From Lichenihabitans psoromatis (GTDB taxonomy: Bacteria > Pseudomonadota > Alphaproteobacteria > Rhizobiales > Beijerinckiaceae): a stretch of 64,000 bases of DNA. Made by a program: the position numbers and the translations under genes. The first letter of the stretch is position 1, and every line of letters starts with the position of its first letter. The stretch is taken from contig NZ_CP036515.1 in assembly GCF_004323635.1 (NCBI RefSeq), forward strand, positions 1,909,501-1,973,500. The letters run 5' to 3'. Below the pieces are notes generated by a model. The model made no database searches. It had not been told where the DNA came from and was given only the letters and a program-made list of their open reading frames with translations. Positions 1 to 17,645 of this stretch are shown here, piece by piece.

Positions 1-1816
<1,816 letters not shown>

Positions 1817-1869
1817 GGGCGGAACCTCTGCATGTGGTCGCTTTGTTGCTCGATCGGTCCGATCCCGCT

Positions 1870-2784
1870 TCAGGCGGCGGCTTGATCGAGCCTCGGTCGC
1901 AGTCCCAGAAGATGACAGATCGCGTAGACGAGATCGGCCTTGTTCATCGTGTAAAAATGGAAATCGCGGACCCCGTAATCGACGAGATCGAGGACTTGTT
2001 CGGCCGCCACGGCGGCTGCGATGAGCCGCCGCGTCGCCGGATCATCGTCGAGCCCCTCGAACCGATCGGCCAGCCATTGCGGCACCGAGGCGCCGGTTCG
2101 GGCCGCGAAATTCGCGGTTTGCTTGAAATTCTGAACCGGGACGATGCCGGGAATGATCGGGATTGTGATGCCCCGCGCCCGGACCCGCTCGATGTATCGA
2201 AGATATAACGCGTTATCGAAAAAGAATTGCGTTATGGCGCGCGTCGCACCCGCATCGACCTTCGCGGCCAAGACGTCGAGATCCACATCGATGTTCGGGC
2301 TTTCGGGATGGGCCTCAGGATAAGCCGACACGGAAACCTCGAAGTCGCCGGCGCGGCGGATCCCGGCAACGAGATCCGCCGAGGTCGCGTAGCCACCCGG
2401 ATGGGGCGTGTAGGCCGTGCCGACGCCGCCCTGCGGATCACCGCGCAGCGCCACGATATGGCGCACGCCAGCGGACCAATAGCCGGCCACCACCTCGTCG
2501 ATCTCGGCCTTGGTGGCGCCGACGCAGGTGAGATGTGCGGCCGGCTTCATCGTGGTGTCGCTGACGATGCGCGCGACAGTGGCGTGGGTCCGCTCGCGCG
2601 TTGAGCCGCCGGCCCCATAGGTGACGGACACGAAATCTGGCTCGAGCGGCTCGAGCCGCGTCACCGCATCCCATAAGCCCACCTCCATCTCGGCGGTTTT
2701 GGGCGGGAAGAACTCGAACGACACTTTGATGGGCGTCGCCTTCACGAGGCTATGCGAGCGGCTCGGGCGATGATCGGGCAGCAT
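1870..2784 (-). CDS. metF: 5,10-methylenetetrahydrofolate reductase
   Basis: MetF is a flavoenzyme that reduces 5,10-methylene-THF to 5-methyl-THF, the methyl donor used by the adjacent MetH. The 304-residue product has the family hallmarks: [11 protein letters not shown] near the N-terminus, [28 protein letters not shown], and [16 protein letters not shown] towards the middle. Length is normal for bacterial MetF. The ATG at 2784 overlaps the stop of the upstream ArsR-methyltransferase gene by one base (TGATG), which predicts translational coupling. A TTG three bases further up is also in frame but less likely. Confidence 0.96.
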
Positions 2785-3797
2785 CAAGCAACCTCCTGAT
2801 GGGGAAAGGCGAGCGGGGCATCCGACAAGGTGCGACGATCACGGCCAATCCAGATCGACACCGTCAGCGTATCGGCTTCGCCGTCTTTCGGCGTCAGGTC
2901 GCGATGCTGTTCGCTGGCGAGGCCCGCATCGGCCATGAAACCGTCGATCTCCTGCCGCGAGAAGCCGAGCCGGCGGTGAGCGTGATGGTCCCGCAAGGAC
3001 TCATGGTCATGCGGTGCGAAATCCACCACGACGAGGCGGCCGCCCGGCCGTAAGGCTCGAGCCGCCTCGCGAAGGGCGCGGGACGGGTCGTCGAGGTAAT
3101 GCAGCACCTGATGCAGGATGACGAGATCATAGCCGTCGCGCTCGACCGGCGGCGCATAGATGTCGCCCTGGCGGAGGTGGATATTCCGCAGACGGCTTCG
3201 CTCGATCCGGGTCCGCGCGATGTTGAGCATCGCATGGTTTTGGTCGATCCCGATGGCGCGGTCGGCCAAAGGCGCCAGAAGCTCCAGCATCCGGCCGGTG
3301 CCGGTGCCGAGATCGAGCAGGGCGCGAAACGGCCCCGGCCCAACCGCCTCGAGAATAGCGGTCTCGACGCGCTCCTCGGCGATATGCAGCGAGCGGAGCC
3401 GATCCCATTGGCTTGCCTGAGTAGCGAAATAGCGCTCCGCATTCTGATTGCGGGCCGTTCGAACCTCGCCGAGCCGGGCCCGATCGGCAACCAGAACCGG
3501 GTCATCGGGGTCGAGCCGCCGCACCAGGTCGCGGCCGCAAGAGGCCGTCGGCGTCCGAGCCATGCAGGAAAAGAACGCCCATGCGCCCTCGCGATGGCGC
3601 TCGACGAGGCCGGCTTCGACCAGCAGCTTCAGATGCCGAGACACGCGCGGCTGTGATTGACCGAGGATCGAGACGATCTCGGTCACGGTCAATTCCGCTT
3701 CGACCAACAGCGCGAGAAGCCGAAGGCGCGTGGCTTCCCCGGCTGCTTCAAGCGCCGCGAGGGCCGAGCCAAACGAGAGAGGGACCGCATTCGTCAT
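2784..3797 (-). CDS. ArsR-family regulator fused to a SAM-dependent methyltransferase
   Basis: The 337-residue protein joins two domains. Residues about 10-90 form an ArsR winged helix (recognition-helix region ILGQSQPRVSRHLKLLVEAG). Residues about 140-310 form a class I SAM methyltransferase (motif I LLDLGTGTGRMLELL, later GYDLVILHQVLHYLDD and LRPGGRLVVVDFAPHDHE). Fusions of this type recur next to metF in alphaproteobacteria and are thought to sense SAM or SAH status and repress methionine-cycle genes; that role is inferred here. It is the first gene of the metF-metH operon and lies just downstream of a perfect 16-bp palindrome that is its probable operator. I chose ATG 3797; TTG 3800 is also in frame. 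Whether the methyltransferase domain is catalytic or only a ligand sensor cannot be told. Confidence 0.88.
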   Translation of the reverse strand: MTNAVPLSFGSALAALEAAGEATRLRLLALLVEAELTVTEIVSILGQSQPRVSRHLKLLVEAGLVERHREGAWAFFSCMARTPTASCGRDLVRRLDPDDPVLVADRARLGEVRTARNQNAERYFATQASQWDRLRSLHIAEERVETAILEAVGPGPFRALLDLGTGTGRMLELLAPLADRAIGIDQNHAMLNIARTRIERSRLRNIHLRQGDIYAPPVERDGYDLVILHQVLHYLDDPSRALREAARALRPGGRLVVVDFAPHDHESLRDHHAHRRLGFSRQEIDGFMADAGLASEQHRDLTPKDGEADTLTVSIWIGRDRRTLSDAPLAFPHQEVA

Positions 3798-3877: not shown

Positions 3878-4549
3878 TCACCCGGCCGCGAGGTCTCGCC
3901 ACAACAGATAAAGCGCAGGCTCGTCGTCCTCGATCGTCATCGGGCCGAACGGCTCCAGGAAGTAGTTGTCGGTCAGGTCGTCGTTGACTTCGCTGATTTC
4001 TCCGACCAATGACGTCCCGGTCCCGGGAATTCCATAAAAACGATGTGCCTGCAGCGGCGGCAGCGTCAGGCTCTCGCCCGGTGTGAGCACGACGGTTTGT
4101 CGCGCCGCGATGGTCGAGCGAGCGCCATCGACCAGGATCTCGACCGGTGCCTCGATCGGCTTGCCGGCCGCATCCACGTTGACGAGATCGATGCCGAGCG
4201 AGCCGCCACCCCGCACCAGCATGTCCTCCGTTTTGGCGCGGTGATAATGATAGGGCGCTTCCTGTCCCTCCCGCATCACGATGGCCTTCTCGGCATACAC
4301 GCGCTGCCCCGCGCGCCCCGCGACACCATTGCGCGCAACCAGCAGGATGAGGCCCTGACGGAAAAAATCCCCGCTGCCGAAATCGGTGATGATCCAACCC
4401 ATCTGATGTTCGGCACAGAAGTGCCGACGGGCGGGATCGGCGTCCCATTGCGCTGGCGACCAGGTGGCCCAGGGCGGCGGCACATAGCCGTGCCGCGCGA
4501 ATGTCGCGTTGGCGTCGCGCATCTGCTGGTTGATAAAGGAGCGTTTCAT
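3878..4549 (-). CDS. D-lyxose isomerase-type cupin sugar isomerase
   Basis: The 223-residue product resembles the cupin D-lyxose ketol-isomerases, which interconvert D-lyxose and D-xylulose. It carries a metal-binding cupin pattern in the middle (QEAPYHYHRAKTEDMLVRGGG; the two His of HYH, then E, are likely ligands) and a second cupin strand (LPPLQAHRFYGIPGTG). ATG 4549 is preferred over an upstream start because it follows a purine-rich stretch and begins at the conserved MKRSFINQQM. It lies 16 nt downstream of xylB on the same strand. That supports the call: D-xylulose made here would be phosphorylated by XylB. The exact substrate (D-lyxose, D-mannose or another aldose) is not proven. Confidence 0.8.
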   Translation of the reverse strand: MKRSFINQQMRDANATFARHGYVPPPWATWSPAQWDADPARRHFCAEHQMGWIITDFGSGDFFRQGLILLVARNGVAGRAGQRVYAEKAIVMREGQEAPYHYHRAKTEDMLVRGGGSLGIDLVNVDAAGKPIEAPVEILVDGARSTIAARQTVVLTPGESLTLPPLQAHRFYGIPGTGTSLVGEISEVNDDLTDNYFLEPFGPMTIEDDEPALYLLWRDLAAG

Positions 4550-4565
4550 GGTGAGGTCCCTCGGC

Positions 4566-6020
4566 TTATCGCGCCGGCTCGCCGAGCCGGTAGAGACCGC
4601 GATAGCGTCCGTAGGCTTCCGCGTAGAGGGGCACGAGCCGCGCATTTGGCTCGATGGTGCTTTGCACGGGTGGCGGCGTCATGATCGAGGCCGGGTCCGC
4701 CCCGGTGGCAGCCGCCATTGCGAGCCGGGCGGCGCCGAACGCCGCGCCCACATCCGCCTCGGCCGTGAGATCGAGCGGGCGATCGAGCACGTTGGCGAGG
4801 ATCTGCAGCCAGGCGCGCGATTGCGCGCCGCCGCCGACCGCGAAAGCCCGCGCGAAGTCGGTGCCCGCATCGGCCAGCACGCGCTGGCAATCCTTGAACG
4901 CGAACGAGACGCCTTCGAGCACGGCCTGTGTCAGCGCGCGCCGATCCGTGCCATGCGCCAGTCCGGCCAGGAGCCCCCGCGCGGCCGCATCGTTATGCGG
5001 CGTCCGCTCGCCCGAGAGGTAAGGCAAGAAGGTCACGGGAGAGGGGCCATCCAACGCCTCGCCGACCTCGGCCGCGAGCGCCGGCGCGGGTTGCCCGACC
5101 AGCTTCGCCAGCCAATTGAGGCTATCGGTCGCCGACAGAATGACGCCCATCTGGTGCCAGGTCCCCGGTAGGGCATGGCAGAAGGCATGCACAGCACCCT
5201 CGGTGTTGGGCGAAAAGCGCGCATTCGAGACGAACAGAACGCCGGACGTGCCGAGCGACACGAAAGCAGAGCCGGGCACAACCGCGCCGATGCCGCAAGC
5301 CGAGGCGGCATTGTCGCCGGCGCCCCCCGCCAGCACCGGAGCCTTGGTCATCCCCCATCGCGCTTGGAGATCGGGGCGCAGCCGACCCGTCGCGTCGGTG
5401 CCTTCGGCCAGCGACGGCATCGCGCCAATCTCGAGACCCGTCGCGCTCAGCAGGTCGCTCGACCAGCGGCGTGCGCCAACGTCGAGCCAATAGGTGCCCG
5501 ACGCGTCCGACATGTCGGACACATACTCGCCGGTCAGGCGCAGCCGGACATAATCCTTCGGCAGCAGCACCTTTCGGATCTGCTCGAACAAATGCGGCTC
5601 GTGCCGGCGCAACCAAAGCAGCTTCGGGGCCGTGAAGCCCGGCATCGCGATGTTGCCGGTGATGCGCCGCGCATCGGGGCAGGCGGCTTCAAGCTCCAGG
5701 CATTCGGCGGCCGCACGTCCGTCGTTCCACAGGATCGCCGGGCGCAGCACCTGGTCGTCGGCGCCGAGCAAAGTCGCGCCATGCATCTGGCCTGATAGAC
5801 CGATTGCTTCGACGGCCGCCATCTCGTGCGGATGGGTGCTGGTGAGCTTGTCGAGCGTGGCGCAAACCGCAGTCCACCAATCCTCTGGCGCCTGCTCCGA
5901 CCAGCCCGGATGCGGCCGGGTCACGGCCAGGGCGTGAGTGGCGCTCGCGAGCACGGTCTGCTTCGCATCGACCAGCACGGATTTGACCGAAGTGGTTCCA
6001 ATGTCCACGCCAAGGAACAT
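4566..6020 (-). CDS. xylB: Xylulokinase (FGGY carbohydrate kinase)
   Basis: XylB phosphorylates D-xylulose with ATP to D-xylulose 5-phosphate, which enters the pentose phosphate pathway. The 484-residue length is typical. The N-terminus shows the first FGGY motif (FLGVDIGTTSVKSVLVD), followed by the substrate region (AIGLSGQMHGATLL, LWNDGRA). The C-terminal ATP domain has GTSGVLFVSN and VGGGAQSRAWLQILANVL. ATG 6020 is preceded by GGGAGG at good spacing. The gene is transcribed away from the SorC regulator and polyol importer and together with the lyxose isomerase-type gene. A polyol dehydrogenase is encoded at 12062-12835, so import, oxidation and phosphorylation genes flank one another. Confidence 0.93.
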   Translation of the reverse strand: MFLGVDIGTTSVKSVLVDAKQTVLASATHALAVTRPHPGWSEQAPEDWWTAVCATLDKLTSTHPHEMAAVEAIGLSGQMHGATLLGADDQVLRPAILWNDGRAAAECLELEAACPDARRITGNIAMPGFTAPKLLWLRRHEPHLFEQIRKVLLPKDYVRLRLTGEYVSDMSDASGTYWLDVGARRWSSDLLSATGLEIGAMPSLAEGTDATGRLRPDLQARWGMTKAPVLAGGAGDNAASACGIGAVVPGSAFVSLGTSGVLFVSNARFSPNTEGAVHAFCHALPGTWHQMGVILSATDSLNWLAKLVGQPAPALAAEVGEALDGPSPVTFLPYLSGERTPHNDAAARGLLAGLAHGTDRRALTQAVLEGVSFAFKDCQRVLADAGTDFARAFAVGGGAQSRAWLQILANVLDRPLDLTAEADVGAAFGAARLAMAAATGADPASIMTPPPVQSTIEPNARLVPLYAEAYGRYRGLYRLGEPAR

Positions 6021-6144
6021 GCATGCCTCCCGTTCGCGCCAGCGCGGCGCTTGATTTGCTTGGTCGAGCCTTATCTACGCTTTTCGCCGAAACGGAACAC
6101 CTGCTTCTCCCGATTTGTCTCGCTCACGCGCAAGGACCCCCATC

Positions 6145-6564
6145 ATGCGTCAGGCCCTTCACCATCTCGTTCAACAAACGCGGCGCAAGGGCCTCTACGA
6201 GATCACGCGAGAGGTTGTGGCCTGGACCGACCTCCAAGCCGTGTCGACCGGGCTGTTGACGATCTTCTGCCGGCATACCTCAGCGTCGCTGCTGATCCAG
6301 GAGAATGCCGACCCGACCGTGCAGCAGGATCTGGCGCAGTTCTTCGAGGAGATCGCGCCCGAAAGCGCGACGCGTTACATCCATAACGACGAGGGGGCGG
6401 ACGATATGCCGGCCCACCTCCGCACCGCGCTGACGCAGACTCAGCTCTCGATCCCGGTCGAGCGGGGGCGGCCGGTCCTCGGCACGTGGCAAGGCATCTA
6501 TCTCTTCGAACATCGCAGCCGGCCGCATCGGCGCGAGGTCGTGCTCCATCTCATCGGGGAATGA
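6145..6564 (+). CDS. YjbQ/UPF0047 family protein
   Basis: This 139-residue protein belongs to the compact YjbQ (UPF0047) family. Conserved stretches are LLTIFCRHTSASLLIQENAD and, further on, HNDEGADDMPAHLR, GTWQGIYLFEHR. Family members form small barrels with conserved His/Asp/Glu residues, and some have weak thiamine-phosphate synthase activity; the cellular role is unclear. The start at ATG 6145 follows an AAGGAC ribosome-binding site, rather than an upstream in-frame codon. It is transcribed divergently from xylB and ends 111 bp before the SorC regulator, and has no obvious functional link to the polyol genes. Confidence 0.85.
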   Translation: MRQALHHLVQQTRRKGLYEITREVVAWTDLQAVSTGLLTIFCRHTSASLLIQENADPTVQQDLAQFFEEIAPESATRYIHNDEGADDMPAHLRTALTQTQLSIPVERGRPVLGTWQGIYLFEHRSRPHRREVVLHLIGE

Positions 6565-6675
6565 CCTTGACCTCGGCGGCAGCGCAGCCACCGGATCCGT
6601 GCCGTTGACAGGATCAACAGGCCGCTTGAGCATGGCGGCGGAGCACAAGCATGCTATTGGCCCTGCCCACCCCGC

Positions 6676-7671
6676 TTGTGCCGCGAGACCACCTTGAACG
6701 ACAAACCCATCGATGCAAAAGCCAAACGGCTCGACCTCGCGGCGCGGGCCGGGTGGCTTTACTACATTCAACGACGGACCCAGGACGAGATCGCGATCGA
6801 GCTGAACGTTTCGCGCGCCAATGCCCAGCGCTTGGTGGCGCTCGCGATCAGCGAGGGGCTGATCAAATTCCGCCTCGACCATCCGCTGTTGCAGTCGATG
6901 GAATTAGCCGAGCGGATCCGGCACCGATTCGGCCTGCAATCCTGCGAGATCGCGCCGAGCGTGGAGGGCGATGGCGATAATCGGCTCGGCGTCGGCATGG
7001 TGGCGGCCAAGCTTCTCGAGGGCTATCTGAGCTCCCGCGACCCCAAGGTCATCGCGCTCGGCACTGGACGCGCTCTGCTCGAGACCGTGCGTCAAATGCC
7101 GTCGATGTCACGGCCCGAGCATCGGATCGTTTCCGTGGTCGGCAACCTCAGCCGCGACGGCCGGGCCAGCCCCTATGACGTGGCCATGCGCCTGTCCGAC
7201 CGGGTCGGCGCCGAATGCTATCCGCTTCCGCTGCCTGTCATCACCGACACCCAAGCCGAATGCGACATCCTGCGCTCGCAGCGCGGATACCGGAAAGTTG
7301 CCGATCTCTACGAGAATGCCGATGCCGTGATGCTTGGGGTCGGTTCGATTGGAGGGCGGGCTCCCATCCTGGTCGATGGATTCGTCAACCGCGACGAGAT
7401 CGACGCGCTGCTCGACGATGGAGCCGTCGGTGAATTGATGAGCCGCAGCTTCGATGGCGCGGGTGTCCCCATCGACAATGCCGTCACGGCGCGGCTGACC
7501 GCGTTGCGGCTCATCGCCAACCCGCAGCGGATCGTCGTGCTCGTGGCGTCCGGGGCTGACAAAGTCAGGCCCATGATGGCGGCGCTCGAGGGCCGATACG
7601 CGACCGGATTGGTGACCGACGAGCGGACCGCGACGGCGCTCCTGGCGCAGGCCGGTTCTGACCTTGCCTGA
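6676..7671 (+). CDS. SorC-family sugar-responsive transcriptional regulator
   Basis: The 331-residue protein has an N-terminal helix-turn-helix of SorC/DeoR type (RTQDEIAIELNVSRANAQRL, residues about 35-55) and a C-terminal SorC sugar-phosphate-binding domain from residue about 65 (VIALGTGRALLETV, ADAVMLGVGSIGG, VDGFVNRDEIDALL). It sits directly upstream of the polyol importer operon on the same strand and close to xylB, so it most likely controls both in response to a polyol or sugar phosphate. The start is uncertain: only TTG codons (6676, 6694) are available in frame near the N-terminus. An imperfect inverted repeat in the downstream spacer is a candidate operator. Confidence 0.88.
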   Translation: MCRETTLNDKPIDAKAKRLDLAARAGWLYYIQRRTQDEIAIELNVSRANAQRLVALAISEGLIKFRLDHPLLQSMELAERIRHRFGLQSCEIAPSVEGDGDNRLGVGMVAAKLLEGYLSSRDPKVIALGTGRALLETVRQMPSMSRPEHRIVSVVGNLSRDGRASPYDVAMRLSDRVGAECYPLPLPVITDTQAECDILRSQRGYRKVADLYENADAVMLGVGSIGGRAPILVDGFVNRDEIDALLDDGAVGELMSRSFDGAGVPIDNAVTARLTALRLIANPQRIVVLVASGADKVRPMMAALEGRYATGLVTDERTATALLAQAGSDLA

Positions 7672-7705
7672 CCGGACGCGCCTGCTAGGCTCGTCCAAAT
7701 ATTCC

Positions 7706-7752
7706 TTGACAAACGAGGGCTCACGGTTGAGTTTTTGCTCCGACGGTGAGCA
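7706..7752 (+). promoter_or_regulatory. Candidate promoter and SorC operator of the polyol importer operon
   Basis: The 112-bp spacer between the SorC regulator and the solute-binding protein contains a consensus -35 hexamer TTGACA at 7706-7711. It also holds an inverted repeat TGCTC-N7-GAGCA at 7736-7752, about 32 bp before the start codon. No good -10 hexamer is visible at 16-18 bp, as often in alphaproteobacteria. The inverted repeat is a plausible regulator site, but this is inference from position and symmetry. Confidence 0.4.
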
Positions 7753-7783
7753 TTTAAGCAACATCACCGAGGGAGGAAACAGG

Positions 7784-9100
7784 ATGCGTTACGCTCGTTT
7801 TTACGGGGTGGCGATGGCCGCCCTAATGGCCGGCGCCACAGCCGCCAGGGCTGACACAACGCTGACGATCGCGACCGTGAACAACGGCGACATGATCGAA
7901 ATGCAGAAGCTGTCGCCGCAATTCGAAAAAGACACCGGCATCAAACTCAACTGGGTCGTGCTCGAAGAGAACGTCCTGCGTCAGCGCGTCACCACCGATA
8001 TCGCCACCAAGGGCGGTTCATTCGACGTCATGACGATCGGGGCCTATGAGGCGCCGATCTGGGGCAAGCAGGGTTGGTTGGTGCCGCTCGATGATTTCGG
8101 CGCCGATTACGATTATGCCGATATCGTGCCGCAGGTGAAATCGGCTCTGACGGTCGATGGCAAGCTGTTCGCGGCGCCGTTCTATGCGGAAAGCTCGCTG
8201 ACCTTCTACCGCAAGGATCTGTTCGAAAAGGCTGGCATTACGATGCCGGAGAAGCCGACCTATCAGCAGATCGCCGAATATGCCGCTAAGCTGACCGACA
8301 AGAAGGATGGCATCTACGGCATCTGCCTACGTGGCAAGCCGGGCTGGGGCGAGAATATGGCGTTTCTCGGCGCCGCCGCTACCGCATTCGGTGGCTCGTG
8401 GTTCGACGAGCAATGGAAGCCGCAGTTCACCTCGAAGCCTTGGGAACAGACGATCGCCTGGTACCTCGACGTGATGAAGAAAGACGGGCCGCCCGGTGCG
8501 ACCGCCAACGGCTATAACGAGAATCGCGCGCTGTTCTCGACCGGTAAATGCGGCATGTGGATCGATGCCACCGTGACGGCCGGTTATCTCTACAACCCGA
8601 AGGAAAGCCAGGTCGCCGATAAGGTGGCGTTTGCGCCCGCGCCGATCACCGAGGCCAATACCAAGGCCAGCGGCTGGTTCTGGTCGTGGAACCTGGGTGT
8701 TCCGACCTCCACCAAGAATGCCGATGCGGCCAAGAAGTTCGTCAAATGGGCGACCTCGAAAGACTACATTAAGCTCGTGGCGGCCGATCAGGGCTGGGTT
8801 TCGGCTCCTCCCGGCACGCGTCTGTCGACCTACGCCAACGAGGACTACAAGAAGGCTGCGCCCTTCTCGGCTTTCGTGCTGAACGCCATTCAGACCACGA
8901 ACCCGGCGCACCCGGCTGTGATGCCCGTCCCGTATGTCGGCGTGCAGTTCGCCGCCATTCCTGAATTCCAGGGGATCGGCACGACGGCTGGCCAGGATGT
9001 CGCGGCGGCTCTCGCCGGGCAGGACACCGGCGCCCAGGCGCTGACCAAGGCGCAGGCTTCCGCCGAGCGCACGATGAAGCAGGCCGGCTACCCCAAGTAA
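7784..9100 (+). CDS. smoE: Polyol ABC transporter substrate-binding protein (SmoE-like)
   Basis: The 438-residue protein begins with a Sec signal peptide (residues 1-23, ending ATAARA before DTTLTIATV) and continues as a family 1 extracellular solute-binding protein. It is closest in character to the sorbitol/mannitol-binding SmoE proteins of Rhodobacter and rhizobia. Visible conserved blocks include FDVMTIGAYEAPIWGKQGWL, PFYAESSLTFYRKDLFEKAG, KASGWFWSWNLGVPTSTKNA and VPYVGVQFAAIPEFQGIGT. ATG 7784 follows a strong GGGAGG site. It is the first gene of the importer operon, followed by two permeases, an ATPase and a dehydrogenase. The substrate (sorbitol, mannitol, arabinitol or another polyol) is inferred. 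Confidence 0.9.
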   Translation: MRYARFYGVAMAALMAGATAARADTTLTIATVNNGDMIEMQKLSPQFEKDTGIKLNWVVLEENVLRQRVTTDIATKGGSFDVMTIGAYEAPIWGKQGWLVPLDDFGADYDYADIVPQVKSALTVDGKLFAAPFYAESSLTFYRKDLFEKAGITMPEKPTYQQIAEYAAKLTDKKDGIYGICLRGKPGWGENMAFLGAAATAFGGSWFDEQWKPQFTSKPWEQTIAWYLDVMKKDGPPGATANGYNENRALFSTGKCGMWIDATVTAGYLYNPKESQVADKVAFAPAPITEANTKASGWFWSWNLGVPTSTKNADAAKKFVKWATSKDYIKLVAADQGWVSAPPGTRLSTYANEDYKKAAPFSAFVLNAIQTTNPAHPAVMPVPYVGVQFAAIPEFQGIGTTAGQDVAAALAGQDTGAQALTKAQASAERTMKQAGYPK

Positions 9101-9140
9101 GCCGCCGATCGGCTTAGCAAGACGGTCGGGCAGTAGCCCG
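9098..9140 (+). terminator. Tandem stem-loops after the solute-binding protein gene
   Basis: Two hairpins follow the stop codon: TAAGCCG-CCGAT-CGGCTTA (9098-9116, including the stop) and CGGGC-AGTA-GCCCG (9127-9140). Neither is followed by a U-run, so they are more likely 3'-end stabilisers or attenuators. Such structures let the binding protein be made in excess over the downstream permeases, as in many ABC operons. Confidence 0.45.
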
Positions 9141-9175
9141 GCCGGTTCCATTTTCCTCCGCCGAGGTTGGTCGAC

Positions 9176-10093
9176 ATGACGACGTCTGTGACCGTATCGC
9201 CAAAGACCGCACGGTTCTCGATGCGACGCGCCGCGAGCCGCGCCGTCGATACGAGGCCCTTGCTGTGGCCGAGCATCGGCGTGTTGCTGATCTGGATGAT
9301 CGTCCCGCTCGTCCTGACGCTGTATTTCTCGTTTCGGAACTACAATCTCGTCGACCCGACGATGACCGGCTGGGCCGGACTCGACAATTACACGTACTTG
9401 CTGACGGACCCGTCGTTCCTGACCGTGATCGTCAATACGGTGGTGCTTGTCGTTGGCGTGCTCGCCGCCACCATCGTGTTCGGCACGCTGTTTGCGGTCT
9501 TGTTCGACCAGGAATTTTGGGGGCAAGGCGCCGCGCGCCTCTTCGTCATCGCACCCTTCTTCGTCATGCCGACCGTCGCGGCGTTGATCTGGAAAAATCT
9601 GCTGATGCATCCGGTGAACGGGCTCATCGCCTATATCACCTCGTCGCTGGGTCTTGGCGTGTTCGACTGGTTCAGCCAAGCGCCGCTGTTATCCGTCGGG
9701 ATCATCGTGGCGTGGCAATGGGTTCCGTTCGCCACGCTCATCCTCCTGACCGCCATGCAGTCGCTGGACCGCGAGCAAATCGAGGCCGCCCGGATGGATG
9801 GCGCGAAAGCAGTGGCGCGTTTCCAGCACATCATCGTGCCGCATCTTTTGCGGCCCATCACCGTCGTGGTGATGATCGAGATGATCTTCCTGCTCGGCAT
9901 TTTCGCCGAGATCTACGTCACGACGTCGGGCGGCCCCGGCGATGCCTCCACGAATCTGCCGTTCCTCATCTACAAAACCGCGATCCTGAACACGGATATC
10001 GGTGGCGGCTCGGCCGGCGGTATCGTGGCCGTCGTGCTGGCCAATATCGTGGCGTTCTTCCTGCTCCGCGCCTTCGCGCGCAACCTCGACTGA
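9176..10093 (+). CDS. smoF: Polyol ABC transporter permease 1 (SmoF-like)
   Basis: This 305-residue inner-membrane permease belongs to the MalF type of CUT1 importers. A long hydrophobic segment follows a short cytoplasmic N-terminus (WPSIGVLLIWMIVPLVLTLY), with about six membrane segments overall. The EAA loop that docks on the ATPase is visible as EQIEAARMDGAKAVARFQHI (about residues 200-220). ATG 9176 is preceded by a GAGG. It is the second gene of the importer operon, 75 bp after the solute-binding protein gene. Confidence 0.9.
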   Translation: MTTSVTVSPKTARFSMRRAASRAVDTRPLLWPSIGVLLIWMIVPLVLTLYFSFRNYNLVDPTMTGWAGLDNYTYLLTDPSFLTVIVNTVVLVVGVLAATIVFGTLFAVLFDQEFWGQGAARLFVIAPFFVMPTVAALIWKNLLMHPVNGLIAYITSSLGLGVFDWFSQAPLLSVGIIVAWQWVPFATLILLTAMQSLDREQIEAARMDGAKAVARFQHIIVPHLLRPITVVVMIEMIFLLGIFAEIYVTTSGGPGDASTNLPFLIYKTAILNTDIGGGSAGGIVAVVLANIVAFFLLRAFARNLD

Positions 10094-10103
10094 GGACGAC
10101 ACC

Positions 10104-10926
<823 letters not shown>

Positions 10927-10934
10927 ATCCTTCG

Positions 10935-12059
<1,125 letters not shown>

Positions 12060-12061
12060 GT

Positions 12062-12835
12062 ATGTATCTGGACCTCTTTCGCCTGCAGGGAAAAACCGCC
12101 GTCGTGACGGGCGGCGGCGGTGCGATCGGCCTTGCGACCTGCCATGCGCTTGCGGAAGCGGGCGCCAAGGTCATCGTTGCCGACATGCTGGGCGATGCGG
12201 CTCGCAAAAGCCAAGCGGAGTTGAAAGCGGCCGGGCATGCGGCCGACATGATCGAACTCGACGTCACGAAGCCCGATCAGGTCCGCAAGGCCGCCGACGA
12301 TCTGAACGCGACCTATGGCGCTGTCGACATCATGATCGCCAATGCGGGGATCGCGCGGTCGGGGACAAACGGCGAAGACGTGACGGACGAGCATTGGCTG
12401 AACGTCATCGACGTCAATTTGAACGGTGTCTTCTGGTGCTGCCGCGATTTCGGCAAGCATATGCTGAAGCGCGGGCACGGCAGCATCGTCACGGTCGGCT
12501 CCATGTCGGGTTTCATCGTCAATAAGCCCCAGCCGCAATCTTACTACAATGCCTCGAAGGCGGCGGTGCATCACCTCACCAAGTCGCTCGCGGCCGAATG
12601 GGGCCAGCGCGGCGTGCGGATCAATTCGGTGGCGCCGACCTATATCGAGACGCCGATGACGACCTTCGGCGGATCGGCTCCGGGCATGATGGATACTTGG
12701 CTCGAGATGACGCCGATGCACCGCATGGGCCAGCCGCGCGAGATCGCGTCGGTGATCTTGTTTCTGGCCTCTGAAGCCGCAAGCCTGATGACCGGGTCGG
12801 TCGTGGTCGCGGACGGCGGCTACACGGCCTGGTAG
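12062..12835 (+). CDS. SDR-family polyol dehydrogenase
   Basis: The 257-residue enzyme is a classical short-chain dehydrogenase. The NAD-binding glycine motif is TGGGGAIG (residues about 17-24), the NAG motif is IANAGIA, and the catalytic residues are visible as Ser in VGSMSG and the YxxxK of YYNASKAAV. ADMLG after the second strand suggests NAD+ rather than NADP+. Relatives include galactitol, sorbitol and D-arabinitol 2-dehydrogenases. As the last gene of the importer operon it would oxidise the imported sugar alcohol to a ketose. If that is D-xylulose (from D-arabinitol or xylitol), XylB at 4566-6020 completes the route. The substrate is not determinable from sequence. Confidence 0.85.
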   Translation: MYLDLFRLQGKTAVVTGGGGAIGLATCHALAEAGAKVIVADMLGDAARKSQAELKAAGHAADMIELDVTKPDQVRKAADDLNATYGAVDIMIANAGIARSGTNGEDVTDEHWLNVIDVNLNGVFWCCRDFGKHMLKRGHGSIVTVGSMSGFIVNKPQPQSYYNASKAAVHHLTKSLAAEWGQRGVRINSVAPTYIETPMTTFGGSAPGMMDTWLEMTPMHRMGQPREIASVILFLASEAASLMTGSVVVADGGYTAW

Positions 12836-12844
12836 GCCGGGACC

Positions 12845-14794
12845 TTACAGTCCGAGCATCGTGGGGGCGGGACGGACTACATCACGCCCCAGCAAGGAAT
12901 GGACGCGGAGCGGTGCCCGCGTCCCGCGGATCGTCACAGTATCGACCGCCATGAAGGCGAAGCGGTCGCCGGCGGCCTTGCGGATTGCGTCGCTGACCAG
13001 GATCGTGGTGCCGTAATCCTTGTTCAGGGCTTCGAGCCGCGCCGCGACATTCACGGTGTGACCCAGCACCGTGTAGCTGATCCGGTCGGCCGACCCGACA
13101 TGCCCGACCACCGCGTCGCCCGTATGCAGTCCGAACCGGGTCTGCAGGGCCGGCAAGCCCTCCTGGCAAAATCTCTCGTTCAGCTCCCCGACGCGCTTTG
13201 CCGCGGCGAGCGCGCCGACGCACCCCCGTTCGATATGATCGGCCTGCGGCTCCGGCGCGTTCCAGAACACCATGACGCTGTCGCCGATATACTTGTCGAT
13301 CGTCGCGCCCGAGGCGATCAACTCGCCCGCCACTGCCTCGAAATAGCGCGACATCTGCGCCATCAGGATCTCTGGATCGAGGCTCTCGGCGAGCCGGGTA
13401 AAGCCCGCAATGTCTGCAAACAGCACGGTGACGGGCTGACGCGCTCCTCCGAGCGCGGGGGATGCTTGATCGGCGACGATGCGGCGCACGATCTGGTTCG
13501 GCACGTAGCGGACGAAATTCTGAAGCGCGAGATCGAGCGTCACCACCGCCCCGGCGAGGTCTCTGATTTCCCTGATCCGCGATGCATTCGGCCGATGAAC
13601 GATTGGCCGAAACGCCATGATGCTGGACAGGTCGCGGGTGATCCGGCCGAGTGGCTGGGATAAGCCGCGTGCGGCCACGACCCCGACGAGAGCCGCGACC
13701 AGCACGGCGACCAGCCCGAGCTCCAGCGACCGCAGGCGCAATCGGTCAGCCGGACCGAGAATATCGGCAGCCGGGACCGTGAGGCCGAGCATCAAGCCGG
13801 TGCCGGGCATCGCGTTTTCGACCCGGCCGACATAGGAGGCGCCATCGACCCGGAACGAGAGATCGCGGCCGCTCCCCTCGCGTTGATAGGCGTCGGACAG
13901 TGACGCGAGGCTGGCAGAGCCAAGCGTGGTGAGGCGCGGCATGGCCTCGGGGCTGGTTGGTGGCGTCGGCAGCACGGACCCGAGCGGCGCGGCGCGCGCC
14001 ACCACGGTTCCGTCGCTTTGGAAGATCACGAGATCCTGCCGGGGCGACGATTGCATCTGGGTCAGAGCTCGATCGAGATTGGCCAAGGTGACGTCGAGGC
14101 CGAAAACGACGTCGGAGGCGCCGGCTGCGCGACGCGCCAGCGTGATGCCGATCTGCGGCATGTTGGTGAAGTGGTAGGGCGGGATCGATACGGTCCGGTT
14201 CTGGCCCAGGGCCGCCCGATACCAGGGACGCTCCCGCGCATCGAGGCTGGTCGGTGTCGGTTGACCTTGTCGCAACGTCGCTCCGGCATCGTCATAGAGC
14301 GTCCAGCGGAGCGTCATGCCATTTGGCGTTCGCTCAACCAGTTCGGCCGAATAGGCATGCGACTGTTCGGCCGCCAGCATGGTGTCGCTGGCGGGACCGT
14401 GCTGCACCAGGACCATGCTGCCGTCAGGGCGACCGATCTCGATGGCCATCACGGCGGGCGCCGTCGGCTCGATCGAGCGAAGAATCGACAGCAGCAAAGC
14501 AGCGGTTGCATCGGGCGTGTCGTCGGTGTGTGTCGTCAGCGCTGTGATGTCGAGCGCGATCGTCGCGGTCGCGAGGGGCGCCTCCGTTTCGCGCCGGACC
14601 TGCTGGGCCAGGGCGCTGAAGCGGGCGCTGGCTTCCTGTCGCGCCAAGGCAGAGACTTGGCGGTGGTTGAACCAGACGAGGCCACCCGCGGTTGCCACGA
14701 TGATCGAGCAGAAAACCGCCGCGAGCACGACCCGAAGGCCGATCGAGCGAGGGTGTCGGGTGCTTGGCGGAGCATGCTTCTGCAAATCGATCAT
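12845..14794 (-). CDS. Membrane-bound class III adenylate cyclase with periplasmic sensor domain
   Basis: The 649-residue protein has an N-terminal membrane helix (about 18-42) and a long periplasmic region (about 45-345) of Cache type (ARERPWYRAALGQ, IPPYHFTNMPQIGITLARR). A second helix follows (about 355-378), then a linker and a class III nucleotide cyclase domain (about 430-610). The first metal Asp is in VLFADIAGFTRLAE and the second in DKYIGDSVMVFW; the Lys in DKYIGD fits ATP as substrate, and NVAARLE supplies Asn and Arg. It would make cAMP in response to an extracellular small molecule. It is convergent with the polyol operon, with only 9 bp between stops, and no link between them can be shown. 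Confidence 0.9.
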   Translation of the reverse strand: MIDLQKHAPPSTRHPRSIGLRVVLAAVFCSIIVATAGGLVWFNHRQVSALARQEASARFSALAQQVRRETEAPLATATIALDITALTTHTDDTPDATAALLLSILRSIEPTAPAVMAIEIGRPDGSMVLVQHGPASDTMLAAEQSHAYSAELVERTPNGMTLRWTLYDDAGATLRQGQPTPTSLDARERPWYRAALGQNRTVSIPPYHFTNMPQIGITLARRAAGASDVVFGLDVTLANLDRALTQMQSSPRQDLVIFQSDGTVVARAAPLGSVLPTPPTSPEAMPRLTTLGSASLASLSDAYQREGSGRDLSFRVDGASYVGRVENAMPGTGLMLGLTVPAADILGPADRLRLRSLELGLVAVLVAALVGVVAARGLSQPLGRITRDLSSIMAFRPIVHRPNASRIREIRDLAGAVVTLDLALQNFVRYVPNQIVRRIVADQASPALGGARQPVTVLFADIAGFTRLAESLDPEILMAQMSRYFEAVAGELIASGATIDKYIGDSVMVFWNAPEPQADHIERGCVGALAAAKRVGELNERFCQEGLPALQTRFGLHTGDAVVGHVGSADRISYTVLGHTVNVAARLEALNKDYGTTILVSDAIRKAAGDRFAFMAVDTVTIRGTRAPLRVHSLLGRDVVRPAPTMLGL

Positions 14795-14859
14795 CGGCCC
14801 CTTCGGGGCCGATGTGTCTCAGGTCGAACGCCGCCGCGCAAGGCCGAACGGCTGAACGG

Positions 14860-15795
14860 TTAAAGCGCGAGCGCGCTCCGCGCCGAGGCGGGCCAAGCGG
14901 CGGGATCGAGGCCGTGGGTCCAGAACAGCGCGACCGCGAGCCGATCCATGCCAAAAGCGACGCAGCCGGTATGCGCGACGTTGCCGTCGGCATCCTCGAT
15001 GTTCCAGGTGGTCCCGAAATGATCGCGATGGGCATTGAAGCTCATGCAGGCGGTGGGCGACTCGACCGATTTCAGCGGCACCACCAGTTCGAACTTCAGC
15101 GCCTGGTGCAATTGGCTGAGCGCCATCACCTGACCGATCCGGCCGAAAAACGGATCGCTCGCGGTTTCGACGCGGCAGGGGAGCGCCAAGGCGTCGGCCA
15201 TCTCGTGTGCGCGGACCATCCAACGTTCCCGGAACGCATTCACGTCCTGCGGCGCGCCGATGCAGACATATTCGCGCATGCGGAAAGACTGTAGCCGGTC
15301 GAGATGCGGGGATGGCTCGTGGCGGAAGCAATCGCAGGCGACATCGAAGATCGCGCCACCCGCCGGCAACGGCCCCCGAGCCGCCACGATCGGGTAGACG
15401 GGGTAGCAGGCGGCTGGACTCAGCACGAGATCGGACGGCGAGAGCGCGCTCGTCCAATCGCCACCCTGCATGTGGCGGTCGGCAGCGGCCGAAATTTCGG
15501 CATCCGTGCCGTGCAGCGCGCAGACGCAGCCGAGCAGGTTGGGGAAGCTCTTCAGGTAACCATGCCGTTCGAGGTCGCGGCGGCTCATCACCGGCGGAAA
15601 GCGCAGCACCTCCGTGCCGGCTTCGCGCTGGCTTGAAATATAGGCCGCGAGCCGCTCGACTATCCCTTCATAGAGGCCGGTCCGGGCATATACGCCATCG
15701 ACGCCCATGGGCTGGAACAGCGCGTCCTTGATGGTGTCCTGCGTTCCCGTCGGGGCAACGAAGCCAAGGTGGCTAGGCCGCAAGGGAGCGTTCAT
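14860..15795 (-). CDS. Amino acid:[carrier protein] ligase (class II aminoacyl-tRNA synthetase-like)
   Basis: The 311-residue protein resembles the catalytic core of atypical seryl-tRNA synthetases but lacks the tRNA-binding arm. Such Bradyrhizobium enzymes activate glycine or alanine and load it onto a carrier protein's phosphopantetheine rather than onto tRNA. Class II motifs are visible: motif 2 region VACDCFRHEPS then RLQSFRMREYV, and motif 3 near GCVAFGMDRLAVALF. The zinc ligands of the family appear preserved as Cys130, Glu175 and Cys278, nearly the same positions as in the characterised homologue. ATG 15795 is favoured by a GGAG site; an ATG 15 nt upstream has none. It follows the acyl-CoA dehydrogenase homologue by 37 nt, and a carrier protein gene is divergent nearby. 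The final product is unknown. Confidence 0.87.
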   Translation of the reverse strand: MNAPLRPSHLGFVAPTGTQDTIKDALFQPMGVDGVYARTGLYEGIVERLAAYISSQREAGTEVLRFPPVMSRRDLERHGYLKSFPNLLGCVCALHGTDAEISAAADRHMQGGDWTSALSPSDLVLSPAACYPVYPIVAARGPLPAGGAIFDVACDCFRHEPSPHLDRLQSFRMREYVCIGAPQDVNAFRERWMVRAHEMADALALPCRVETASDPFFGRIGQVMALSQLHQALKFELVVPLKSVESPTACMSFNAHRDHFGTTWNIEDADGNVAHTGCVAFGMDRLAVALFWTHGLDPAAWPASARSALAL

Positions 15796-15832
15796 GGGGA
15801 TCTCCGACATGGATGGATGAAGGGCGTGGCGT

Positions 15833-17074
15833 TCAGCCGCCGAGTCCGGTGGGGACGGGCGTCATCAGGGTCGCGCTCGACAGGCTTGCGAGGATGCGAT
15901 CGTTGTTGATCATCAGCGGCGACGACAGAATATCGCGCAGCTGCCGGCTCACAGACGCTTCGCCGTCGTTCCGATAGCCGGACAGGCCGCAAGCGCGGAG
16001 GGCCGCCAGAACGGTCGCCACGGCGAGTTCGGACGCGTCGACCTTGAGGAGCGTGATCGCGGTCTGAAACACCATGGAGGTCATGATCGCATCGTCACGG
16101 ATGGCGTCCTCGTAGCGACGCGCCGACGAGGAGACTAGCGTTCGCAGCATGTTGAGCGTTGAGCTTGCCTTGGTGAAATGCGCGGCCCCAGGCGGCAGTT
16201 GACCGCTCGATTGCCGCATGGCCCGGCGGGTAAAGGCCTGTGCGCGCTCGACAGCCGCGGCTGCGATGCCGGCCCAGACGCCGGACCAGACGAGATGAGC
16301 GACCGGCGTCATGGTCTGGCCGTGGATGCGGTCGTAGGGCACCGGAAGGATCTGGTCCGCCACGCCCGACGCCATCATGTCGAAACCGACGCTGCACGTG
16401 CCACGCATCCCCATCGTGTCCCATCCGCTACCCTGGACGAGGTCGTAATCCGCCTTGAGGAAAACCGCGAGAACCTGATCGGAATGCGCCGCATCCTCAG
16501 AGCGGCGCGCCGTCGTCACGATGGCGTCGGCCTGCGCCCCATAGGAGATGACACTGGCATTGCGGTGAAGCGTGATGCGATCGCCGTCGCGGCAAATCGG
16601 AGCCACGCTGGATCGGACGTTGCCGCCGCCCTGACCCTCGGTGGTCGAGGAAGCGAACAGCAATTGGTCGGTGGCGAGCCGCGCCAGCACGGCGCGCTGC
16701 CAGGCATTGTCGCCGGCATGGCGCACCACGCAGGCGGCCTTCGTCTGGTGCATGGCATAGATCATCGCGGTCGAGGCGCAGGCGCGACCGAGGCGATAGC
16801 AGACGTCGACGACGGCGGGCAGGTCGACCTCTTCGCCGCCGAGATCGCTCGGGACGAGGATGCCGAACAGCCGTTGAGTGCGGATCGCCTCGATCGCTTC
16901 GGTTGGAAAACGTCCGTTGCGGTCGACGTCGACGGCATGAGCGGCGGCGATTTTGGCGACCGCATCGGCGCGCTGCGCCAGCGTGAGCGCCGGCACGGCG
17001 ATGTCGGTCGCGGCGACGGGTTTGGTCTCCGGGGCGCCGATCGGATCTGTCACAGCAAGGTCGAACATGGTCAT
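15833..17074 (-). CDS. Acyl-CoA dehydrogenase family protein of the carrier-protein cluster
   Basis: The 413-residue flavoprotein has the acyl-CoA dehydrogenase architecture: an N-terminal helical domain (residues about 30-140), a middle beta domain (TTEGQGGGNVRSS; GSGWDTMGMRGTCSVGFDM) and a C-terminal helical domain. The place where the family normally carries the catalytic Glu of a YEGT-like motif reads SPLMINNDRIL, so the usual base appears to be missing; some relatives place it elsewhere or are not dehydrogenases. It is the first gene of a two-gene operon with the amino acid:[carrier protein] ligase, so its substrate may be an aminoacyl thioester on the neighbouring carrier protein. That role is inference. 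A second ATG lies 6 nt downstream. Confidence 0.82.
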   Translation of the reverse strand: MTMFDLAVTDPIGAPETKPVAATDIAVPALTLAQRADAVAKIAAAHAVDVDRNGRFPTEAIEAIRTQRLFGILVPSDLGGEEVDLPAVVDVCYRLGRACASTAMIYAMHQTKAACVVRHAGDNAWQRAVLARLATDQLLFASSTTEGQGGGNVRSSVAPICRDGDRITLHRNASVISYGAQADAIVTTARRSEDAAHSDQVLAVFLKADYDLVQGSGWDTMGMRGTCSVGFDMMASGVADQILPVPYDRIHGQTMTPVAHLVWSGVWAGIAAAAVERAQAFTRRAMRQSSGQLPPGAAHFTKASSTLNMLRTLVSSSARRYEDAIRDDAIMTSMVFQTAITLLKVDASELAVATVLAALRACGLSGYRNDGEASVSRQLRDILSSPLMINNDRILASLSSATLMTPVPTGLGG

Positions 17075-17384
17075 GCCTGGTAAGAATACGGGCCGGCGCC
17101 GGCAGGAAGAACCGAAGCTACGGAGCAGCGCTCGCGACGGCCTACCTTAAGGCTTAGAAAATGAGGAAAATCAAATCTGCGCCCGCTTATACGCAACCGA
17201 TGCTGCTTGCGGTTAAGCAATGCTTATCAAAAGCTGAGCGTGAGCGTGAATCCGCCGCAAGCCGCTCGAGGCCGCTTCAAGCGGGTTTACAGAAACTTAG
17301 GCTGAACATGCTTTGTGGTTTGTTCGACGAGCGCGGCGGAGGTAGCCGACAGGCTCTGACCGAAGCGGCTTTGAGGACGTGACG
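17075..17384. promoter_or_regulatory. Divergent intergenic region of the carrier-protein cluster
   Basis: This 310-bp gene-free spacer separates the leftward dehydrogenase/ligase pair from the rightward carrier protein gene and must hold promoters for both. I see a perfect inverted repeat TAAGC-AAT-GCTTA at 17214-17226 in a locally AT-richer stretch, which is a possible operator, and no convincing RNA structure. Short open frames here have no coding character. Confidence 0.4.
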
Positions 17385-17645
17385 ATGGATCAAGCGGTTG
17401 AAACGACGGTCGGCCGTGTCGAAGCCGTGGTGGCCCGCATCCGTGCCGAAGGCGGCAAGACCACGCCGGTTGCAATCGACGATCGCCTCGTCGACGCCGG
17501 AATGACGTCGATGGATATGGTGTCGCTCATGCTGGCGATCGAAGCGGAATTCGACGTGACCATCCCGCCGAGCGACATTACTCCGGCCAACTTCCGCTCC
17601 ATCGCGACGATCGTGGCCATGATGGACCGTATCGGAGCCGCCTGA
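17385..17645 (+). CDS. Acyl/aminoacyl carrier protein
   Basis: The 86-residue protein is a small acidic carrier protein. The phosphopantetheine attachment site is Ser42 in DAGMTSMDMVSL, the equivalent of the classical DSL motif, followed by the helix III region FDVTIPPSDITPANFRSI. ATG 17385 has a GAGG site 8 nt upstream, and the GTG six bases earlier is too close to that site. It is not the housekeeping AcpP, whose gene normally sits between fabG and fabF. Its neighbours, an amino acid:[carrier protein] ligase and an acyl-CoA dehydrogenase homologue, indicate that it carries an amino acid thioester. A phosphopantetheinyl transferase would be required and is not in this window. Confidence 0.88.
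   Translation: MDQAVETTVGRVEAVVARIRAEGGKTTPVAIDDRLVDAGMTSMDMVSLMLAIEAEFDVTIPPSDITPANFRSIATIVAMMDRIGAA

Follow-up and report, generated by a model that had tools for sequence, protein, structure and literature searches.

A conserved trio of amino acid:[carrier protein] ligase, flavoprotein and carrier protein in Lichenihabitans psoromatis and the two types of locus in which it is found

The subject of this report is a trio of genes at positions 14,860 to 17,645 of a 64,000-nucleotide stretch of the Lichenihabitans psoromatis genome (contig NZ_CP036515.1, positions 1,909,501 to 1,973,500; the whole stretch is called the window below), which encode an amino acid:[carrier protein] ligase, a flavoprotein of the acyl-CoA dehydrogenase fold and a stand-alone carrier protein, CP1. 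Comparison with other genomes revealed that the trio is real and widely conserved and belongs to a family that is known but functionally unsolved, and that the ligase loci fall into two types, A and B, with different partner genes. Type A, which includes the window, is tied to a cassette around a second carrier protein, CP2, and to a tandem-GNAT acyltransferase. The reading we favour, at a probability of roughly 0.45, is that the trio is a unit for oxidising an amino acid while it is tethered to a carrier protein, probably by N-oxygenation, and that the oxidised group is joined with the acyl unit of CP2 on an amine of the cell envelope.

All three open reading frames (ORFs) are intact in the window, with the ligase gene 22 bp downstream of the flavoprotein gene on the same strand. 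Of 571 matches in a genome scan for ligase loci, the best 80 were kept, each of them from a close relative and most from Bradyrhizobium or Rhodopseudomonas; the trio was complete in all 80, CP1 being divergent in 79 and co-directional in one (L038). Whole-genome searches covered 60 relatives, 385 genomes of the class and 398 of the phylum, in sets that overlap, and an over-cut-off ligase was identified in 22, 10 and 28 of these, respectively, a distribution that is therefore patchy. The relatives and class sets gave 30 distinct over-cut-off loci, once a duplicate (L085, of L125) had been left out and the distant, below-cut-off ligase matches had been excluded from the trio counts; the gene maps came from a codon-score gene caller that misses some genes. 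The flavoprotein was adjacent in 28 of the 30 loci, CP1 in 29 and both in 27. With these 27 loci and the 80 complete ones, the linkage cannot be put down to chance, and the association supposed from the window by an earlier sequence-only reading thus extends to other genomes. In addition, ligase and flavoprotein distances co-vary across 28 loci (Mantel r 0.87, with none of 1000 permutations as high), the correlation being 0.86 within type A and 0.64 within type B.

The ligase (positions 14,860–15,810, minus strand) is a class II aminoacyl-tRNA synthetase (aaRS)-like protein of 316 residues whose identity, first proposed from the DNA letters alone, was borne out by a score of 462 bits against the NCBIfam model NF005479, 'amino acid--[acyl-carrier-protein] ligase' (curated cut-off 357), and by its closest solved chain, Bll0957 of Bradyrhizobium (aa:CP ligase 1; PDB 3mey and 4h2s; E 2e-145, residues 24–315 aligned). 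It consists of the catalytic core without a tRNA-binding domain, and seryl-tRNA synthetase profiles match it by their C-terminal part only. Its zinc ligands, Cys135, Glu180 and Cys283, are kept in all 14 aligned ligases, distant ones included; these are the residues that the sequence-only reading had numbered Cys130, Glu175 and Cys278, counting from an ATG five codons after the start of the 316-residue frame. Ligases of this family load Gly or Ala on carrier proteins and, judged by homology, it is near certain that this one would load an amino acid on CP1.

CP1 (positions 17,379–17,645, plus strand) has 88 residues and was recognised by its match to Pfam PP-binding (36.2 bits), its conserved place beside the flavoprotein and its best solved relative, the aminoacyl carrier protein from the crystal complex with Bll0957 (4h2s chain C, E 5.5e-16); MacpD is a weak match of CP1 too (24 bits). 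From the GTG start at 17,379 the attachment residue is Ser44, in the motif GMTSMDM, and from the alternative ATG at 17,385, two codons later, it is the Ser42 given previously. By the ORF coordinates, the divergent spacer between flavoprotein and CP1 (positions 17,075–17,378) measures 304 bp to the GTG, in agreement with the 310 bp earlier counted to the ATG, and no match to a sigma-70-like promoter was found within it. The phosphopantetheinyl transferase family has two matches in the L. psoromatis genome.

The sequence-only reading had put the trio forward as a candidate for an undescribed system, a suggestion which does not stand. The ligase family and a complex of ligase with carrier protein have been solved, and a note in proof of 2010 already describes neighbourhoods of the ligase family containing an acyl carrier protein (ACP), a 'Rossmann fold monooxygenase/dehydrogenase', the uncharacterised conserved ORF Atu2574 and a glycosidase (PMC2922099). 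That note proposes that a sugar on the cell surface accepts the aminoacyl group at an amino group, and that the redox enzyme alters the aminoacyl group, probably by monooxygenation; the idea of oxygenation in that source therefore predates our analysis (PMC2922099). According to a 2022 review, the biological role of the ligase system was still unknown (PMC9437257). Data reported for a phaR mutant of Bradyrhizobium diazoefficiens include increases of bll0957 and bll0958 (the latter named acd) at both transcript and protein level, the table giving a fold change of 3.0 for each and, in its other column, log2 values of 2.5 and 1.7 (PMC10888616). Neither the split into two types nor the tie of CP2 and GNAT to one of them was met in the literature consulted on the trio, its locus tags, DUF1839 and carrier-protein N-oxygenation, the searches not having been aimed at work on the cassette or the GNAT.

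The two types were defined by the orientation of CP1 and by DUF1839, which was sought in stretches of 10–20 kb and in the window. Type B loci have a co-directional CP1, and DUF1839 was present in 28 of 30 of them; the two without it (L228 in G189 and L229 in G372) also have no flavoprotein, and CP1 is weak in L229. Type A comprises the loci with a divergent CP1 together with those of G006 (L111) and G507 (L272), in which no CP1 was called and which were assigned by absent DUF1839 and by kin, and DUF1839 was present in none of these 20 loci. An exception to the orientation rule is L038, which combines a co-directional CP1 with CP2 and stands outside the type counts. The window trio is of type A, as its CP1 is divergent and there is no match to DUF1839 at E 1e-5 in the 64 kb, the rest of the genome not having been searched for this family. 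Typical neighbours of the type B trio are DUF1839 and a GH2-like glycosidase, and on plasmid pBRH01 the order is acyltransferase, ACP, flavoprotein, ligase, DUF1839, beta-mannosidase and alpha/beta hydrolase. From gene order, we equate DUF1839 with Atu2574. The DUF1839 family has been described as papain-like, its triad being C(T/S)H, with a suggested role in glycan processing at the cell wall (PMC10318531). As separate observations on mobile elements, a Rhizobium leguminosarum plasmid typed as conjugative carries a type B cluster (L308), and 88 plasmid records have a ligase match, 22 of them from Streptomyces, with 29–37% identity for the Streptomyces ones among the matches listed.

Around the type A trio, the recurring genes encode CP2 (about 82 residues, motif GLDSLCFA), a short AMP-binding ligase (about 460–480 residues), a FabG-like short-chain dehydrogenase/reductase (SDR; about 244 residues), a long-chain acyl-CoA synthetase, a 290-residue protein, a thiamine pyrophosphate (TPP) enzyme and a class IV aminotransferase. 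The 290-residue protein has no Pfam match and is a tandem-GNAT acyltransferase. CP2 and this protein shared a 20-kb stretch with the trio in seven of 11 type A loci; L224 had the 290-residue protein alone nearby, the window, L110 and L111 had neither, and in all four genomes the missing genes were found elsewhere. The cassette of the window genome is on the same replicon (G000:C1) at about 842.3–844.8 kb, about 1.08 Mb from the trio, and consists of CP2 (L177:9832-10077), the AMP-ligase (L177:10064-11503) and the SDR (L177:11500-12255), with genes for the TPP enzyme and the acyl-CoA synthetase on either side. This CP2 matches Pfam PP-binding at 23.5 bits (cut-off 20.8), and the copy in L109 has no Pfam match. 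The sole match to the GNAT in the window genome is at 761.0 kb (L176:9808-10842). It is bordered by a glycosyltransferase gene, beyond which lies a Wzz-type gene, and by a convergent gene of 517 residues that appears by eye to be a polysaccharide flippase. The sequence-only reading had remarked that no condensation gene was seen, which is true of the window; in relatives there are transferase candidates beside the trio, namely DUF1839 in type B and the tandem GNAT with the CP2 cassette in type A.

The tie between type A and these genes was examined in several sets of genomes. We searched a 30-genome test set drawn from the phylum search, 20 with and ten without an over-cut-off ligase, and assigned its genomes to types once the CP2 search was complete, from features that do not depend on CP2. 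CP2 was found in 9/9 type A genomes, 0/11 of type B and 0/10 without ligase; the corresponding counts for the GNAT were 9/9, 1/11 (a weak match in G548) and 0/10. Among the 60 relatives, CP2 occurred in all nine of type A, two of 13 of type B (G012, G020) and three of 38 without ligase (strong in G027, weak in G037 and G043), and the GNAT in all nine, in two (G020, G054) and in one (G027), respectively. In the class set, both were present in 4/4 type A genomes (of which G000 and G006 are also among the relatives) and in none of the six other ligase genomes, and each was found in eight of the 375 genomes without an over-cut-off ligase, three of the CP2 and two of the GNAT matches having E values below 1e-20. 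Absences in the class set are weaker evidence than those in the test set, where all candidates were scored, as only part of the first-look candidates (up to 6, 13 or 40 per genome, by search) was scored there. Fisher tests on strong matches gave p of about 1e-8 to 4e-8 for CP2 and GNAT, with kinship ignored. In these tests, genomes whose match was weaker than E 1e-20 did not count as carriers (CP2: G037 and G043 among relatives, G074, G110, G204, G205 and G278 in the class; GNAT: G066, G092, G129, G220, G254 and G317 in the class). Named genomes that had been picked for the trio had CP2 in all 19 searched.

Contrasts within genera help against shared ancestry as the cause of the tie of CP2 to type A. 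In genus g9, three type A genomes (G586, G601, G700) have CP2 and two type B genomes (G579, G013) do not; in g56, CP2 is present in five type A genomes and absent from three genomes without the ligase (G631, G647, G715). G005, of the same genus as the window, has no ligase, CP2 or 290-residue protein. The dependence is mainly one-way, since CP2 and GNAT also occur together without the ligase (G027, G245, G303), and CP2 occurs alone in G374.

The cassette itself has known relatives. The best solved match of the SDR is MupS (3.2e-43, 151 bits; next a FabG-type reductase at 145), and that of the CP2 profile is MacpD (34 bits; next 26). At E 1e-10 the AMP-ligase matched 15 of 72,556 plasmid records. 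Among them is pTML1, the thiomarinol plasmid, in which genes for AMP-ligase, SDR and ACP adjoin one another; relative to the cassette, identity is 38% for the SDR and 23% for the ligase, and the ACP is a weak match (30 bits). The starter-cassette genes are TmlQ, TmlS and TacpD for thiomarinol and MupQ, MupS and MacpD for mupirocin. In mupirocin and thiomarinol synthesis, they activate and reduce a dicarboxylate to give a hydroxyacyl starter. In all five of the 15 records that were inspected, ACP, AMP-ligase and SDR occurred together; in two Azospirillum records the cassette adjoins pseI and flagellin genes, and in Haematobacter it is near sugar-biosynthesis genes. Besides the L176 copy, GNAT homologues lie outside the cassette also in L179, L184 and L186, of which L179 and L186 share genes similar to the L176 locus. 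Genes similar to O-acetylhomoserine sulfhydrylase and to MetA (clusters 6 and 25) are also found repeatedly beside the cassette (L177:14125-15642, L223:885-3293); these MetY/MetA-like neighbours may be either methionine genes or parts of the pathway.

The flavoprotein (positions 15,833–17,074, minus strand; 413 residues) was assessed by Pfam, residue columns and a structure model. It has the acyl-CoA dehydrogenase fold and matches Acyl-CoA_dh_N at 48.9 bits and Acyl-CoA_dh_1 at 23.5 bits, both above cut-off, and no NCBIfam model attains its cut-off on it. The position of the catalytic Glu376 of medium-chain acyl-CoA dehydrogenase (MCAD) corresponds to residue 389, which is Ile in the window protein and Ile in 25 and Val in three of 28 relatives; a Glu there was absent from all 41 relatives examined, and the Glu of the YEG motif of 8i4p falls at this same position. 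Residue 259, which by an IVD motif may correspond to the alternative Glu254 site of isovaleryl-CoA dehydrogenase (IVD), is Ala, Ser, Cys or Thr in the 28 relatives. Invariant residues are His109, His260, Trp263, Trp267, Asn391 and Arg393, and His109, found in 28/28, aligns with a His of DszC (4doy) that we take to be its active-site His. With the structure model (pLDDT 89), Foldseek ranked DszC and TdsC first and second and a nitrososynthase seventh, at about 18–23% identity, and by VIA Z the group D monooxygenases tied with true dehydrogenases; structural ranking from the model would thus not by itself decide between a monooxygenase and a dehydrogenase. Lacking the Glu that is usual in dehydrogenases, and resembling DszC and nitrososynthases, the flavoprotein seems likelier to oxygenate an amine than to carry out a dehydrogenation of prolyl type. 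The latter, which the sequence-only reading had invoked by analogy with Pro-to-pyrrole chemistry, was rejected, as the family of L-prolyl-peptidyl carrier protein dehydrogenases (RedW/PltE type, NF045652) matches it at 27.3 bits where 650 would be required, and the MCAD Glu position holds Ile or Val. Azaserine-type hydrazone chemistry was dropped as well, since the passages describing it name no gene type that it shares with the trio (PMC12154687).

Distant homologues of the ligase, below the cut-off, were found in other settings. In L136 (positions 119-3533, in G317), a row comprises an AurF-type N-oxygenase, an ACP-like protein of 84 residues, a distant ligase homologue and a nitronate monooxygenase; the layout is repeated in L138 (G220), a larger stretch is L243, and the ACP-like call was made by eye on a protein without Pfam match. 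This row looks like a carrier-protein N-oxygenation operon. Elsewhere, the homologues adjoin MBOAT acyltransferases (L241:8065-11118, L242:9214-13509, L245:6999-11014), with a carrier protein that is clear in L242, just below the Pfam cut-off in L241 and not called in L245, an arrangement which is a Dlt-like layout with an aaRS-type ligase. In L244 (positions 4237-17404), a ligase homologue and a carrier protein lie within a cluster with two NeuB-family genes, which is probably for biosynthesis of nonulosonic-acid sugar.

How these components may act together is set out here as a proposal. The ligase would convert an amino acid, Gly or Ala, to its aminoacyl-AMP and pass it to the phosphopantetheine arm of CP1. 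The flavoprotein would then oxidise the aminoacyl thioester to an N-hydroxyaminoacyl group or a higher N-oxide, and not to a C=C bond. In type A, CP2, the AMP-ligase and the FabG-like reductase would furnish CP2 with a reduced acyl unit, probably a hydroxyacyl group, and the tandem-GNAT acyltransferase would probably transfer an acyl group to the amine of a cell-envelope sugar or lipid. Since ligase, flavoprotein and CP1 form one conserved unit, the natural interpretation, and a likely one, is that an amino acid is oxidised while bound to the carrier; this much of the earlier suggestion of aminoacyl thioester oxidation has survived the loss of its prolyl analogy. N-oxygenation as the form of that oxidation has about even odds, and we counted the L136-type row, with its AurF-type N-oxygenase and distant ligase homologue, in its favour. 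A joint envelope product of trio and cassette is speculative; counted for the envelope link were the position of the GNAT near glycosyltransferase and Wzz-type genes and that of type B trios near DUF1839 and a GH2-like glycosidase.

Among the alternatives, the one that survives best is that of the sequence-only reading, a true dehydrogenase that acts on aminoacyl-CP1 by a non-classical base to give an iminoacyl or dehydroaminoacyl thioester. We consider this rather unlikely, as none of the 41 relatives has Glu at the MCAD position, the presumed IVD-type position holds only Ala, Ser, Cys or Thr in the 28 relatives, and the prolyl family falls far below its cut-off. Moreover, glycine has no beta carbon, and hence can form no alpha,beta double bond. 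Similarly doubtful is the fullest version of the N-oxygenation proposal, an undescribed two-carrier-protein envelope pathway in which glycine, put on CP1 by the aaRS-derived ligase, would be N-oxygenated by the DszC-like flavoprotein, CP2 would receive a hydroxyacyl group from the thiomarinol-type cassette and the GNAT would join both on an amino sugar, yielding a surface glycan with N-oxidised glycyl groups.

Possibly, the unit merely aminoacylates an envelope acceptor in the manner of Dlt systems, with the flavoprotein serving a side reaction or another substrate. The MBOAT genes beside the distant ligases of L241, L242 and L245, the NeuB-family surroundings of the homologue in L244, and L228 and L229, where ligase and CP1 occur without a flavoprotein, are all consistent with this idea, but it is improbable given a flavoprotein adjacent in nearly all over-cut-off loci and co-evolving with the ligase. 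About as improbable is that aminoacyl-CP1 feeds an assembly line for a peptide or other natural product. The title of a 2010 PNAS paper names a link to non-ribosomal peptide synthesis, and the cassette resembles the thiomarinol/mupirocin starter cassette; against this, the neighbourhoods of type A and type B loci, where part of the genes were family-scanned, yielded no non-ribosomal peptide synthetase or polyketide synthase (PKS). Last, action of the flavoprotein on an acyl chain bound to CP2, with trio and cassette forming one acyl pathway, would explain why CP2 tracks the type A trio but is very improbable, because the link of the flavoprotein to ligase and CP1 is equally tight in type B, yet none of the 11 type B test genomes gave a CP2 match.

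One neighbour of the trio in the window was rejected as a partner. An adenylate/guanylate-cyclase gene with a weak dCache match (positions 12,845–14,794, minus strand) begins 65 bp downstream of the ligase stop, and the closest relative, G004 (L004, L110), has a weakly similar cyclase domain at the same place (29% identity over 175 residues). It is not a family-wide partner, since a comparison with nine further type A stretches turned up no such gene.

The two-type split makes the question of the trio's product testable. In the type A lineage, the CP2 gene set is a concrete lead to that product: the downstream steps still missing in Bradyrhizobium and relatives may be carried out by CP2 together with the AMP-ligase, reductase and GNAT. 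The flavoprotein can now be regarded as a candidate N-oxygenase that depends on a carrier protein, and not as a dehydrogenase.

Comparison with known systems places the trio closest to the Bll0957/bll0958 system of Bradyrhizobium, with which the window shares the zinc ligands, the carrier protein motif TSMDMV and the order of the trio; its ligase is 71–73% identical to most Bradyrhizobium ligases among the matches listed. In mapped Bradyrhizobium loci, the GNAT is directly downstream of the ligase (4/5, and 5/5 of the g56 loci), whereas the GNAT match of the window genome is elsewhere. The Atu2573-type cluster of Agrobacterium is of type B (carrier protein, flavoprotein, ligase, DUF1839, which is Atu2574 by position, and GH2-like glycosidase) and has the same three families of ligase, flavoprotein and CP1, but its CP1 is co-directional and DUF1839 lies beside the ligase. 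Like the group D flavin monooxygenases DszC, TdsC and nitrososynthase, the flavoprotein has the fold, a His at the DszC His position and no MCAD-type Glu; it differs in that its expected substrate is carrier-bound, and no reductase partner was identified for it. The starter cassettes of thiomarinol and mupirocin and that of the window genome all have adjacent AMP-ligase, SDR and ACP genes, although here the ACP is first in the operon and no PKS was identified nearby. D-alanylation by DltA, DltC and DltB likewise involves activation of an amino acid and its loading on a carrier protein, with an envelope component as the presumed acceptor, whereas in the trio the ligase is aaRS-like, and the trio includes a flavoprotein and no MBOAT protein.

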